A stretch of DNA of 46,632 bases, taken from positions 1-46,632 of the forward strand of contig JAHFLF010000005.1 of the NCBI GenBank assembly GCA_023255625.1. The letters are read 5' to 3'. The translations under genes were made by a program, and so were the position numbers. Positions 680 to 33,304 of the stretch are shown one piece after another (position 1 is the first letter of the stretch; each line of letters opens with the position of its first letter). A model generated the notes under the pieces. It saw only the letters and a program-made list of their open reading frames with translations, did not search any database and was not told where the DNA came from. The DNA comes from Candidatus Harrisonbacteria bacterium. Its GTDB lineage: Bacteria > Patescibacteriota > Minisyncoccia > UBA6257 > 1-14-0-10-44-23.

Positions 680-1986
680 ATGAATACTGCGCCACGATCG
701 AAGAAGGTTTGGGATGTGATCGTGATCGGCGGTGGGCCGGCCGGGATGATGGCCGCCGGACGGGCGGCAGAGCTTGGCCGGTCGGTTTTATTGCTGGAGA
801 AAAATTCCGGTTTAGGCAAAAAACTTTTGATTACCGGCGGCGGCAGGTGCAATGTGACTAACGCGGAACCGAACTTGCGAACGCTCGTCAGTAAATATAA
901 AGGCAGCGATCAATTTTTGTTTTCTGCATTTTCACAGTATGACAACAACTCTGGATTAGCATTTTTTAATACTCGCAATATGCCGACAAAAATTGAAAAT
1001 GAGGGGCGGGTTTTTCCGGTCTCTGACACTGCCCGTTCGGTGTGGGAGGTGCTCACGCGTTATATGGAGCAGGGAAAGGTTCAGGTTCAAACTGATGCTG
1101 CAGTTATCGAGTTGGTATTATCATTTAACAATTTCGCGAAATTGTTAAATGATAATGTGAGTAAAGAGAATAGAATCCAGGCGGTGCGGCTGGCAGACGG
1201 GTCGCAGCTCGAAGCCAAGTCTTTTGTAATCGCTACGGGCGGCAATTCGCGGCCGGAGACTGGCTCGACCGGCGACGGATTTAAGTGGCTAAAAAAATTA
1301 GGGCACAGAATTATTCCGACTAACCGCGCCCTTGTACCCATTGCACTTAAAGACGCGTGGGTCAAAAAACTGGCCGGTGTTACGCTCCAGGGGATTAAAT
1401 TAACGACGATTCTTGACGGAGAAAAGCAGTCGGTGCGCAAAGGGAAAATTTTGTTTACGCATTTTGGCGTGACGGGGCCGACCGTGCTTAATTTAAGTCG
1501 AAGTATCGGTGAGTTACTTCCGTACGGGGAGGTTGTGCTCCTGCTTGATTTACTCCCACAATTTGATCATGGCGCTCTCAAGGCAAAGTTGCATTTTTTG
1601 CTGACGAGCGAGAGTAACAAAAAAATAAAAAATAGTTTAGCTAGTTTAATTCCAGCCGACTTGTATCGGTTGTTTTGGCGCGGGTCGGAATAGATGGAGA
1701 GATTTTTAGCCATAGCGTCAGTCGCGAAGAGCGCATTAAGTTAATCGCAACGATTAAGCAAATTCCCTTGCATGTGAAAGAACTGCTTGGCGAGGACAAG
1801 GCCGTTGTTTCCTCCGGTGGCGTTGATTTAAGCGAGATCAATTTTAAAACAATGCAGTCTCGGCTGATTCCTAACTTATATATTGTCGGCGATGTGCTGA
1901 ATGTTGATCGTCCCTCCGGCGGTTATAGTTTGCAGCTTTGTTGGACGACGGGGTTTGTGGCTGGTTCTAGCGCTGCAGCCGCTTGA
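680..1986 (+). pseudogene. BaiN/HI0933-family flavoprotein, frameshifted
   Basis: Two adjoining reading frames together make one NAD(P)/FAD-dependent oxidoreductase of the HI0933/YhiN/BaiN family. Frame 1 (680-1693) has the FAD-binding GGGPAGMMAAGRAAELG near residue 13 and the family motif GGGRCNVTN near 53. It stops early at 1691. The C-terminal third continues in the -1 frame (about 1660-1986), with SSGGVDLSEINFKTM and LYIVGDVLNVD..GGYSLQ, both typical family blocks. The shift lies between about 1655 and 1680, in a stretch containing a T4 run, consistent with loss of one base. It could be a true mutation, a sequencing indel or recoding; I see no strong slippery heptamer. The gene also carries an in-frame 40-bp palindrome (1117-1156). 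Confidence 0.8.
1117..1156. repeat. 40-bp perfect palindrome inside the flavoprotein gene
   Basis: Every base pairs with its mirror partner around the centre between 1136 and 1137 (TTCG|CGAA), with no loop. It is translated in frame as roughly LSFNNFAKLLNDN, in a stretch where the family has no conserved motif that I recognise, so it looks like an in-frame insertion of a palindromic element. Confidence 0.85.
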
Positions 1987-5700: not shown

Positions 5701-5740
5701 AATCAAAAAAGCTCCTGATCTAGCAGGAGCTTTTTTGATT
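5701..5740. terminator. Bidirectional intrinsic terminator
   Basis: A 17-bp perfect stem with a 6-nt loop (ATCTAG). The GC part is GCTCCTG/CAGGAGC, followed by T6 on the plus strand and preceded by A6, so it works both for the secreted-protein gene and for the convergent Ldh_2 fragment. Confidence 0.9.
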
Positions 5741-8945: not shown

Positions 8946-8979
8946 CTATGTTACAGCGTACTAGTACGCTGTAACATAG
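8946..8979. repeat. 34-bp perfect loopless palindrome, copy 1
   Basis: Half-site CTATGTTACAGCGTA, centre CTAG, then the exact reverse complement. Identical to 16309-16342. Intergenic, between tRNA-Gln and the 3' end of dnaX. Confidence 0.95.
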
Positions 8980-10285: not shown

Positions 10286-11581
10286 GTGATCAAAAGATGG
10301 CGTGGAACAGCTATTATGGTTTGCGCAACCGTCATGCTCTTTGTAGCAGCCGGTATTTTTTTATTGACATTTCCTGACGCGAGCTCGCTGCTGATCGGTA
10401 ATTTAGCGCCGGTTTCTGAAAAAATTCAGCTTGATCCGAGCGCAGATATTGATCCGCAAAAACCGCTGGCAATCCCGCCACACCCTATCAAGGCGATTTA
10501 TTTGACTAGCTGGTCTGCTGGCAGTTCAAATACGGTTGATCGCGCAATTAGTTTAATCGGTGCGACTGAACTAAATGCAGTCGTGATTGATATTAAAGAT
10601 TATACGGGCATGGTTAGTTATCGGCCGGATGTTGCGCAGGTTCTTGAGTACGGTAGCTTTGAAAATCGAATTAAGCGGATAAATGCAATGATAAAACTTT
10701 TCCATGACTCGGGTATTTATGTCATCGGTCGCATCGCTGTATTTCAAGACCCGCAGCTAGTCCGAGCTCGTCCGGAGTTTGCCTTAAGAAGTAAGAAAAC
10801 CGGCCGGCCCTGGGGTGATGCAAAGGGGATTACCTGGCTGGACGCGGCTGCTCCGGCAGTCTGGGATTACAATCTGGAGATTGCCAAGGATGTACTCGCC
10901 CGCGGTTTTGACGAGGTTAATTTCGATTATATTCGTTTTCCCACTGACGGTGATTTAGGGGATGTGCAATACGCATTTTACAATCCAGCGACAGAGCAGA
11001 AACATCAGGTTATCCAGGATTTTCTAAAGCATGCCAGGCAAGAACTGCCGTCGGCAAAAATTTCAATTGATATTTTCGGCGAGACGACTTTTATTGATCA
11101 GGATTCGGGCATCGGTCAGAAATTTGAAGACGGCTTTCTTTATGTTGATGCTGTGTCGCCGATGATCTATCCCTCGCATTTCGGAAAAGGATTTATTGGT
11201 TTTGCAAATCCGGCGGCATATCCATATGAGGTTGTGAAATATGTTACTGACAAGTCATTTGCAAAGATGAAGGCGCTAACAAATGCAATTTTAAAAGAGC
11301 CGGTAAATTCAACAAGCACAATGCCGGCCGCGCCTCCGGCGATTGCCGAGTTGCGCCCTTGGTTGCAGGATTTTGACCTAGGCGTTGATTATGACGCAGT
11401 CAAGGTCAGAGCACAGATAACAGCACTGAATGATTCGGCCCGTGCGGCAGCCGGCTGCCCATCTTCCATTAAAAATCAGCAGGAAAAACTGCAACTTGCG
11501 CCGTGTCCACAGGGAGAAATCGGCTGGATGCTTTGGAGTGCGGCAAATTCGTATACAAGAGCCGCGCTCGCACCGCAGTGA
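10286..11581 (+). CDS. Membrane-anchored putative glycoside hydrolase (DUF4015)
   Basis: 431 aa. One N-terminal membrane segment (about 9-29) is followed by a TIM-barrel-like domain of the DUF4015 putative glycosyl hydrolase family: IKAIYLTSWSAGS, LNAVVIDIKDYTGMVSY, GIYVIGRIAVFQDP, TWLDAAAPAVWDYN, GFDEVNFDYIRFPTDG and VDAVSPMIYPSHF. The acidic residues of the strand-end motifs are present. It probably acts on an extracellular polysaccharide or the cell wall. Start is GTG 10286; a TACAAT box lies 9 nt upstream, so the leader is very short. A perfect long hairpin follows the stop. Confidence 0.85.
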   Translation: MIKRWRGTAIMVCATVMLFVAAGIFLLTFPDASSLLIGNLAPVSEKIQLDPSADIDPQKPLAIPPHPIKAIYLTSWSAGSSNTVDRAISLIGATELNAVVIDIKDYTGMVSYRPDVAQVLEYGSFENRIKRINAMIKLFHDSGIYVIGRIAVFQDPQLVRARPEFALRSKKTGRPWGDAKGITWLDAAAPAVWDYNLEIAKDVLARGFDEVNFDYIRFPTDGDLGDVQYAFYNPATEQKHQVIQDFLKHARQELPSAKISIDIFGETTFIDQDSGIGQKFEDGFLYVDAVSPMIYPSHFGKGFIGFANPAAYPYEVVKYVTDKSFAKMKALTNAILKEPVNSTSTMPAAPPAIAELRPWLQDFDLGVDYDAVKVRAQITALNDSARAAAGCPSSIKNQQEKLQLAPCPQGEIGWMLWSAANSYTRAALAPQ

Positions 11582-11597
11582 TTTGAGATATTGCAGA

Positions 11598-11668
11598 GCA
11601 TTGCCGGTTTTGTTTTTAAAGCCGGGTTCACCGTAAACGGATGGCTTTAAAAACAAAACCGGCAATGC
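11598..11668. repeat. Conserved-loop hairpin H1: 26-bp perfect stem, 19-nt loop
   Basis: Arms 11598-11623 and 11643-11668 are exact reverse complements. Loop 11624-11642 reads GGGTTCACCGTAAACGGAT. The loop is nearly identical to that of H2 at 32396-32414, while the stems share no sequence. No T-run after the stem. Confidence 0.95.
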
Positions 11669-11690: not shown

Positions 11691-12416
11691 ATGTTTGAAC
11701 TGCGCCATGACTACTATGTCGGCCCAATGGAAAAGCTGCTGCAGCTTGTTGAAGAGCGCCAGCTGGAAATTTCGCGAGTAAATTTAGCCGCAGTTACGGC
11801 TGATTTTATTGCTTATGTACAGCAGCTGGGCGAGACGGCGACCGCCGAGCTTCTTTCTGATTTTATTGTCGTTGCCGCACGGCTTTTAGTTATTAAATCT
11901 AAAGAGCTTGTACCAGATCTGACTCTGACCGATGAAGAAGAGTCGCAGATTATTGATCTTGAGTATCGGCTAAAATTGTATCGCGAGTTCAAAGCAGCTG
12001 GAGTGGAGCTTAAAAAAATGTGGGACGGAAATAGGCAATTATTAGTGCGGCCATTTCTTTCAGGAACAAAAGACGCCTCTGTTTTTTACCCATCGGCGCA
12101 GATTACGCAGCAGTCGCTGCACGGCGCGCTTGAGCAGCTTTTACGAGTGATGGCGGATTTAGCACCGGAGACGCGAACGGTTGCAGCTGGCGGAATGGTC
12201 ACGCTTCAGCAAAAAATGGCCGAGCTTACGGATCGGCTGAAGCAGCAGATGAGTTTTACGATTCAAGGTAGAGTTACCAAAGAGCAAAAGCAGGAGGTGA
12301 TTGTTCTTTTTTTGGCCGTTTTGCATTTACTGGCCGGTCGGTTAGCCGAGGTCAGTCAGGAGGATCAGTTTGGCGAGATAACCGTTTCTGCGGCTGTGTC
12401 CGCAGAAAGCGAATGA
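11691..12416 (+). CDS. scpA: Segregation and condensation protein A (kleisin)
   Basis: 241 aa. ScpA is the kleisin that links SMC heads and binds ScpB during chromosome condensation. Seen: an N-terminal block with GPMEKLLQLVEERQLEISRVNLAAVT, then FIVVAARLLVIKSKELVP, then EYRLKLYREFKAAGVEL, all family hallmarks in order, and a C-terminal winged-helix-like region (EQKQEVIVLFLAVLHLL). Immediately followed by scpB. A TATTCT box lies 9 nt before the ATG, giving at most a few bases of leader. Length is normal. No smc gene lies in the window. Confidence 0.93.
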   Translation: MFELRHDYYVGPMEKLLQLVEERQLEISRVNLAAVTADFIAYVQQLGETATAELLSDFIVVAARLLVIKSKELVPDLTLTDEEESQIIDLEYRLKLYREFKAAGVELKKMWDGNRQLLVRPFLSGTKDASVFYPSAQITQQSLHGALEQLLRVMADLAPETRTVAAGGMVTLQQKMAELTDRLKQQMSFTIQGRVTKEQKQEVIVLFLAVLHLLAGRLAEVSQEDQFGEITVSAAVSAESE

Positions 12417-16308: not shown

Positions 16309-16342
16309 CTATGTTACAGCGTACTAGTACGCTGTAACATAG
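16309..16342. repeat. 34-bp perfect loopless palindrome, copy 2
   Basis: Base-for-base the same as 8946-8979, with unrelated flanks. Intergenic, between the DUF1653 gene and rodA. Confidence 0.95.
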
Positions 16343-31297: not shown

Positions 31298-32368
31298 ATG
31301 AAACCAAGCTGGAAATTTTATTTGACTGGCAAGGCCGCGCAGCATGCGATGCTCAAGGCCTGCAAGCTCGCGCAGAAGTCAATTGATATTGAGCAGTATA
31401 TTTTTGAAGATGATGAGATTGGCAGATCCTTCGCCACTGTTTTGATGGAAAAAGCAAAAGCCGGCGTGCGGGTGCGTTTACTAGCCGATGTGGTCGGCAG
31501 CCACTCTCTTTTTGTTTCTGATCTTTCAACCGAGCTTTCAAATTCGGGAGTGCAGATACAATTTTTTAACGAGATACAAGCATGGTTGCCGCATAAAGTT
31601 TCGAACTGGTTTTTACGGGATCACCGTAAGTTAATGCTGATAGATGAGGCAGAGGGCTGGACCGGCGGTGTTGGAATCAGTATTTTCATGTCTGCATGGA
31701 GAGATACGCATGTCATGGTTACCGGCGCCGTTGTGGCGCAAATGATTCAGTCTTTTGACAAGATGTGGATTATGACTCGAAGAGGCAGACGCTCGGTTAG
31801 TTTGGAGCCGGCGGCATCGGCAGGCGCCATGCAGTTTCTTGCAAATGCACCGAAACGGCATCAGCGTTTTATTTATTATGCAATCTTAGATGCGATTAAA
31901 AATGCCAAAGAATATATATATTTGGCAACTCCATATTTTATTCCCAATCGTAAATTATTTAGAGCGTTAAAGCGTGCGCGTAAGCGCGGCGTAATTGTAA
32001 AATTGATAGTTCCCAAGGATTCTGACCAGCCATTGGTTGACCTGGCCTGCCGTTCTTATTTTTGGTTGACCCTACGGGCCGGCATGCAAATTTTCCAATA
32101 TGAACCATCTATGATGCACGCCAAAACAATTGTTGTGGACGGCGCGTGGAGCATGATTGGCAGCTGTAACCTAGATAATTTAAGTCTTCTACTGAATTAT
32201 GAAGATGCCCTCATCGTCAAAGAAAAAAAATTTATAAATGAGTTGCGCAAGCATTTTGAAGAAGATCTAAGGAACGCTACTGAAATAAAGCAGGAAGGTT
32301 GGCATGACCGGCCGCTCGGGGATAAGTTTTTGGAGGGGCTGACCTGGCCGCTTCATCGGCTGATGTAA
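31298..32368 (+). CDS. Phospholipase D / cardiolipin synthase family protein
   Basis: 356 aa with two HKD motifs: HRKLMLIDEAEGWTGGVGIS (about 109) and HAKTIVVDGAWSMIGSCNLD (about 275). These form one active site for phosphatidyl transfer. It lacks the N-terminal membrane helices of ClsA and resembles ClsB-type enzymes. Likely makes cardiolipin or a related lipid at the inner membrane face. The stop overlaps the left arm of the H2 hairpin. Confidence 0.9.
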   Translation: MKPSWKFYLTGKAAQHAMLKACKLAQKSIDIEQYIFEDDEIGRSFATVLMEKAKAGVRVRLLADVVGSHSLFVSDLSTELSNSGVQIQFFNEIQAWLPHKVSNWFLRDHRKLMLIDEAEGWTGGVGISIFMSAWRDTHVMVTGAVVAQMIQSFDKMWIMTRRGRRSVSLEPAASAGAMQFLANAPKRHQRFIYYAILDAIKNAKEYIYLATPYFIPNRKLFRALKRARKRGVIVKLIVPKDSDQPLVDLACRSYFWLTLRAGMQIFQYEPSMMHAKTIVVDGAWSMIGSCNLDNLSLLLNYEDALIVKEKKFINELRKHFEEDLRNATEIKQEGWHDRPLGDKFLEGLTWPLHRLM

Positions 32369-32443
32369 ACACGGGGCCGAATTATATTTTTGACAGGGCC
32401 CACCGTAAACGGATTGTCAAAAATATAATTCGGCCCCGTGTTT
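32367..32443. repeat. Conserved-loop hairpin H2: 29-bp perfect stem, 19-nt loop
   Basis: Arms 32367-32395 and 32415-32443 are exact complements. Loop 32396-32414 reads GGGCCCACCGTAAACGGAT, differing from H1 at two bases only. The left arm includes the last two bases of the PLD-gene stop codon. Confidence 0.95.
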
Positions 32444-32506: not shown

Positions 32507-33304
32507 ATGCCGATTATAGAAGTTGAGAATCTCGTTAAGAAGTTTGGTGATTTCACAGCGGTGAATGACATCTCGTTTTCGGTTGAGCCGGGCGAGATTT
32601 TTGCATTTCTGGGGCCGAACGGCGCCGGTAAATCAACGACGATTAAAATGCTTACGACAATTTTGAAGCCGACAAGCGGCAGTGCAAAGGTTGCCGGGTA
32701 TGATATCTCGACACGGCGTGATGCTGTGCGCCACTCATTCGGTATTGTTTTCCAGGATCCGAGCGTTGACGACGAACTGACTTGCTGGGAAAACATGGAT
32801 TTTCACGGCATTTTGTATGGGATGCCAAAAGAGCTACGGCACAAACGGATTACAGATATGCTCGGGCTGATTGAACTTTTGGATCGGAAAGATGATTTGG
32901 TAAAAACATTTTCCGGCGGTATGCGCCGGCGCTTAGAGATTGCGCGCGGGCTCGTTCATCACCCAAAAATTTTATATTTGGACGAGCCGACAATTGGTCT
33001 TGATCCGCAGACTCGTAACCATATCTGGAGTTATATAAAGAAAATCAATGAACAGGAGGGGATGACAATCTTTTTTACGACGCACCACATGGAGGAGGTG
33101 GAACGGGCAGCTCACAAAGTCGCGATTATTGATCATGGCGCAATTGTTGCTCGGGGCACACCGGCAGAGTTAATTGCGCAAACAAAAACCACGACTCTTG
33201 AAGAGGCATTTCTGAAGTTGACCGGGCACGGCATTCGCGAGGAGGAGGCGAGTGGCACTGATGCGGCGCGCCGCCAAAGACAGATGTGGAGCGGCCGTCG
33301 CTAA
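32507..33304 (+). CDS. ABC-2-type exporter, ATP-binding subunit
   Basis: 265 aa. Walker A GPNGAGKSTT, Q-loop FQDPSVDD, signature FSGGMRRRLEIARG, Walker B ILYLDEPTIGLD, H-loop TTHHMEE. The spacing and the DrrA/CcmA-like sequence (VAGYDISTRRDAVRHSFGIVFQDP) mark a drug- or lipid-exporter ATPase. The start at ATG 32507 gives MPIIEVENLVKKFG. The C-terminus is Arg-rich (RRQRQMWSGRR). Partner permease 48 nt downstream. Confidence 0.93.
   Translation: MPIIEVENLVKKFGDFTAVNDISFSVEPGEIFAFLGPNGAGKSTTIKMLTTILKPTSGSAKVAGYDISTRRDAVRHSFGIVFQDPSVDDELTCWENMDFHGILYGMPKELRHKRITDMLGLIELLDRKDDLVKTFSGGMRRRLEIARGLVHHPKILYLDEPTIGLDPQTRNHIWSYIKKINEQEGMTIFFTTHHMEEVERAAHKVAIIDHGAIVARGTPAELIAQTKTTTLEEAFLKLTGHGIREEEASGTDAARRQRQMWSGRR

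Follow-up and report, generated by a model that had tools for sequence, protein, structure and literature searches.

REP/BIME palindromes (PMC2817692) and the ERIC, PU-BIME and NEMIS families covered in the SLS survey of Cozzuto et al. 2008 (PMC2267715) are short, multi-copy, extragenic stem-loops that are lineage-restricted and mostly intergenic. They were defined by similarity of the repeat sequence. Hairpins and inverted repeats maintained by template switching have been described for rRNA and microRNA genes and for inverted repeats in yeast coding sequences (PMC8794818; PMC8604942). Monttinen and Loytynoja (2022, PMC8794818) describe hairpin-primed template switches that correct stems whilst the loop sequence is retained, and exceptionally stable hairpin motifs are enriched at the template switches (PMC8794818).

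The hairpins H1 and H2, found in a 46,632-nucleotide stretch of DNA from a Candidatus Harrisonbacteria bacterium (the window), are almost certainly members of a dispersed family of extragenic stem-loop repeats, here called F1. The family resembles the REP/BIME and SLS repeats in the properties named above but differs in that most of its stem is unconserved. Perfect stems, two-sided changes and a retained loop are shared with the template-switch hairpins, whereas F1 is a dispersed repeat in a reduced bacterial genome. What is new is a family held together by its tip and layout, with a mostly unconserved yet near-perfect stem. Our preferred reading, to which we assign a probability of roughly 0.55, is that F1 is a repeat of the REP/ERIC/SLS kind with arms kept perfect by hairpin-primed template switching, perhaps aided by selection.

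H1 (positions 11598-11668, forward strand) has 26-bp arms and a 19-nt tip, GGGTTCACCGTAAACGGAT (11624-11642), that carries the mini-hairpin CCGTAAACGG at 11631-11640. The strand is that on which the motif GGGCYCA is read, and the flanking genes lie on the same strand. A T-rich block in the 5′ arm, TTTTGTTTTT (11608-11617), has its complement in the 3′ arm and is a feature of the family layout. The gene before H1 (10286-11581, forward strand) is assigned by Pfam to the DUF4015 putative glycosyl hydrolases and its stop lies 16 nt before the hairpin; the gene after it is scpA (11691-12416, forward strand, Pfam). H2 (32367-32443, forward strand) has 29-bp arms and a 19-nt tip, GGGCCCACCGTAAACGGAT (32396-32414). 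It lies between a gene for a PLD-domain, cardiolipin-synthase-like protein (31298-32368, forward strand, Pfam) and one for an ABC transporter ATPase (32507-33304, forward strand, with the start set at the ATG at 32507). The H2 arm opens within the stop codon of the preceding gene (TAA, 32366-32368) and takes in its last two bases, in agreement with an earlier note on this DNA. The same note described both stems as free of mismatches and the tips as equal in length; the arms are indeed 100% complementary over 26 and 29 bp, and the tips differ at just two positions. Folding energies are 8-9 standard deviations below those of dinucleotide shuffles. In two rounds of Markov shuffling of 118.5 kb of the source genome our scan met no hairpin with a score of 13 or above; chance is thus far from accounting for stems of 26 and 29 bp.

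The source genome of the window (G000; 0.93 Mb, 12 contigs, 95% complete) holds a third copy with the exact core, H3, at C1:10452-10529. A covariance model, R1, built from these three copies picked up additional hairpins, without the CCGTAAACGG core but otherwise alike, and a second model, R2, built from 16 copies and searched genome-wide, places F1 at no fewer than 21 distinct sites, essentially all between ORFs. The hairpins thus belong to a family of at least 21 copies, as had been proposed, and F1 is by this count a multi-copy extragenic palindrome as REP/BIME is. Coverage of the whole genome comes from R1 and R2; a model-free hairpin scan spanned about 305 kb of stretches, partly picked around known F1 copies, which biases the density of other families seen there.

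The F1 unit is about 70-80 bp long and folds as a single long hairpin with a conserved, structured and asymmetric tip, AGCC-GGGCYCA-[mini-hairpin]-AT-GGCT. Its 5′ arm runs from a GC-rich outer stem through TTT, two free bases, TTTTT and two further free bases to AGCC, and on the 3′ side GGCT is followed by the mirror of this arm. T occupies positions -7 to -10 in 16-19 of 19 copies, and since this T-run layout is shared the arms are not wholly free to drift. Sequence information at the outer stem positions is slight or absent. Four main forms of the mini-hairpin occur, all of them paired (CCCTNCGGG, TCGCAAGCGA, CCGCGAGCGG and CCGTAAACGG), and these interchange with compensation. The conserved part is therefore the centre and not the ends, in keeping with the original description, but CCGTAAACGG, which that description had taken as the invariant, is confined to H1, H2 and H3 and is one of several interchangeable forms. 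Arm similarity within tip types was not significant (p 0.24). In two copies, C8:263715-263793 and C8:597801-597875, the mini-hairpin is interrupted at the same point by an insertion of the palindrome CCTGCC(TGCC)GGCAGGCAGG. F1 also occurs as two close pairs, with only 7 nt separating the hairpins, in the same orientation and with unrelated stems, at C8:450549-450712 and C8:306835-306983.

On the model favoured in the earlier note, the core belongs to an element that makes or needs an inverted copy of the adjacent host DNA, from which the arms would derive. The arms are mostly unrelated between copies, stop-codon bases lie within the H2 arm, and the H3 stem runs 4 bp beyond the part shared with H1, all of which would fit such a model. 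It is nevertheless very unlikely to be correct. The arms have a T-run/GC layout of their own, the outer arms are 64% GC as against 41% in the flanks, and H1 and H3 have clearly homologous stems (CATTG(G)CCGGTTTTGTTTTT) at unrelated sites whose flanks lack similarity. A weaker argument is that relatives' syntenic spacers, too diverged to decide the matter, display no arm precursor. The accompanying statement that the stems have no similarity is nearly true of H1 and H2, the two hairpins to which it referred, but the family as a whole has a shared layout and the stems of H1 and H3 are homologous.

The manner in which the stems change carries most of the argument for our preferred reading. In the 16-copy alignment 98.3% of cells are paired, and two-sided stem changes outnumber one-sided changes by 113 cells to 1. 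As had been suspected, ordinary point mutation does not suffice to explain the perfect arms. Covariation scores 0.833, compared with 0.180 for shuffled alignments and at most 0.145 for slid structures. G-U pairs make up 3 of 513 F1 stem pairs (0.6%) but 9 of 289 (3.1%) in 14 tRNAs taken from the same stretches of the genome (p 0.011); read on the other strand the F1 count is 6 of 513 (p 0.06), and the asymmetry involves too few cases to point to a transcribed strand. Arm lengths vary from 21 to 31 bp over 19 copies with no bulge, therefore indels are matched in both arms. The same is seen directly between H1 and H3, where CATTGCCGG and CATTGGCCG differ by a one-base indel with the matching change in the opposite arm, as expected if one arm is copied from its partner. 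Two-sided changes far in excess of one-sided ones, matched indels and unbulged stems of 21-31 bp are what template-switch-maintained hairpins display.

On this basis we suggest that new copies form when the entire unit, with its arms, moves or is duplicated, as H1 and H3 indicate, and that after spreading the arms change quickly yet in concert. A nascent strand may fold at the stable mini-hairpin, self-prime and copy one arm from the other; such an intrastrand template switch would write a change in one arm into its partner in a single event and leave the tip untouched. The tip, together with the T-rich/GC-rich layout, would then be what selection or mechanism retains. We hold this account of the changes to be a little better than an even proposition; strong selection for pairing alone could likewise yield two-sided changes.

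Such selection is the essence of another explanation, that F1 is a structured RNA element (a 3′-end stabiliser, RNase III site or insulator) under ordinary pairing selection with no special copying. This is possible, though we judge it rather unlikely. At co-directional sites most of the hairpins begin between -3 and +16 nt relative to the stop codon of the gene upstream, GGGCYCA reads along the genes at 11 of these 12 sites (p 0.006), and H1 has a stop codon on one side and, on the other, a spacer of promoter size ahead of scpA. The mini-hairpins swap with compensation, and RNase III is encoded in the genome, so that a transcribed copy should be cut. Flanking genes here are simple longest-ORF calls, with Pfam checks on the neighbours of H1, H2 and H3. 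Against this explanation one-sided (G-U) states are almost absent, and some copies (C8:209029 and C8:306839/306916) lie between divergent genes, thus F1 cannot simply be a set of 3′-UTR elements. Nor does any Rfam family match: at gathering score the whole window gave tRNA only, the loci of three further copies gave no match and the locus of the relative G097, considered below, gave tRNA only, in line with the original remark that no described family fits. Sub-threshold microRNA models were discounted, as they match any long hairpin.

The orientation itself is open to a second interpretation. In contig C8 the GC skew changes sign at about 385 kb, and the ORF starting at C8:385707 and the one that follows we take, from their sequences, to be dnaA and dnaN. 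Relative to this origin, with the copies on C1 and C4 assigned a fork direction by their own skew, the GGGCYCA reading follows the fork in 18 of 21 copies. Orientation is therefore no proof of transcription. Genes are 68% co-oriented with the fork and the bias of F1 beyond that is marginal (p 0.06); on these 21 copies the gene-direction and fork-direction rules are inseparable. At the RNA level, which is the least certain step of our preferred reading, a unit just behind a stop codon, in most cases read along the gene, might serve as an mRNA 3′-end or insulator hairpin and would be a likely RNase III substrate. We place any particular cellular function well below even odds.

Ordinary intrinsic transcription terminators, which include inverted DNA-uptake-sequence pairs, are likewise intergenic inverted repeats after stop codons, and F1 hairpins do lie behind stop codons, some of them between convergent genes. 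F1 differs in its far longer perfect stem, its structured tip and its mere 21 copies. A U-tract does not consistently follow the stem, whichever strand is read; the T-run is within the 5′ arm and the A-run within the 3′ arm. A terminator scan, limited to loops of 3-8 nt, calls none of the F1 hairpins, and short canonical terminator-like hairpins are present elsewhere, for example at window positions 5701-5740. That F1 copies are terminators of this type is scarcely credible.

Fork-related orientation also bears on the notion that F1 is a DNA-level mobile element, moving as a single-stranded hairpin in the manner of REP or IS200-like elements with the tip as recognition site. F1 is multi-copy and lineage-restricted, H1 and H3 look like the result of a whole-unit move, the GGGCYCA reading runs with the fork in most copies, and the occurrence of neighbouring copies whose stems are unrelated hints at preferred sites. 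The mini-hairpin loops read on the reverse strand are GNA, CTTG and TTTA, which are stable small loops in single-stranded DNA. However no Y1 transposase (PF01797) was detected in the source genome or in two relatives with related hairpins (G097 and G168), although 5 of 14 control genomes were positive; the fork bias is marginal once gene co-orientation is allowed for; and neither a target-site duplication nor a fixed flanking motif was seen. We therefore consider this quite improbable. Target-site duplications were sought at H1, H2 and H3, where the ends of the unit are not sharply defined. Classification as REP/BIME with its own RAYT (Y1) transposase was set aside on two grounds: F1 stem sequence is not conserved beyond the layout, and there were zero PF01797 matches in the 95% complete source genome, G097 and G168. 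A RAYT can act in trans. MITEs are, as F1 is, short, non-coding, multi-copy inverted repeats, but their ends are conserved whereas those of F1 are the variable part; with no conserved terminal inverted repeats F1 was not assigned to them.

The distribution of F1 is narrow. With up to two mismatches allowed, the tip was present in the source genome only among 380 genomes of the phylum, and a search with R2 in 384 genomes of the class, where stricter filters for large sets can lose weak members, likewise returned the source genome alone. G097, which belongs to another family of the same order, has one F1 member, located 5 nt ahead of a tRNA; the tip of this copy is identical and its perfect 25-bp stem is different. 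In G168, a congener of G097, there are long hairpins that have related variant tips and the same T-run. The tip is thus found beyond the window, and no sister genome carrying conserved stems at both loci was found. A candidate match in G042 has a similar T-run and GGCC near the tip. Amongst 100 relatives the exact loop pattern was matched in G017 and G067 outside hairpins, and we attribute these to chance, as we do the scattered matches of the full 18-nt loop pattern in unrelated organisms (seven in the GTDB collection and two in IMG/VR). The two other F1 tip types had no match in IMG/VR, and blastn found no F1 in phages and plasmids. Our literature search yielded no paper that describes families of this kind in Patescibacteria or the Candidate Phyla Radiation.

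The DUF4015-scpA pair around H1 is kept together in several relatives. In G001 (two loci), G005 and G007 the spacer is approximately 35-68 nt and has no F1 hairpin. The window spacer is 109 nt, and removal of the 71-nt H1 leaves 38 nt, close to one of the loci in G001, a member of the same genus; judged from these lengths the difference is consistent with a clean insertion of H1. The spacer before scpA in G004 is about 350 nt long (L105 1153-1500); within it lie zero-loop palindromes, next to one another, that are all centred on CGG|CCG but have unrelated arms.

A bolder proposal sees the tip as a hairpin that primes its own replication, a selfish core continually rewriting its arms by fold-back synthesis. 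We think this unlikely. Were it true, F1 would persist and spread with a fixed centre and ever-changing perfect arms, and the G004 palindromes, together with the F2, F4 and zero-loop palindromes described below, would be parallel families. Repeat families are usually found via sequence similarity, whereas F1 is visible mainly through its tip and perfect complementarity, and F1-like families have therefore probably been missed. The family is a many-copy natural record of stem evolution within one genome and, given strain data, its copies could separate template switching from stepwise compensatory mutation directly.

Other palindromes in the same genome are also of note. The F2 hairpins (C8:333213-333367, 394546-394615, 498577-498648, 593319-593402 and probably 342648-342718) have the tip GATGRRCAGGGATACCTTTTACTGYYCCCT, a compensated mini-hairpin and long near-perfect stems unrelated between copies, the same phenomenon as F1 with a different tip. 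F4 comprises two perfect hairpins of 27-28 bp (C8:200845-200911 and 360179-360243) that have an 11-nt tip, ACGGGGTTCTA, in common, inverted in one of them, but differ in their stems. A zero-loop perfect palindrome, CTATGTTACAGYGTACT|AGTACRCTGTAACATAG, occurs at window positions 8946-8979 and 16309-16342 and at C8:295440-295473 and 448629-448678. Further zero-loop centres are CAG|CTG, TTTCG|CGAAA (window 1117-1156) and GACGG|CCGTC, the last with a matched Y/R change.
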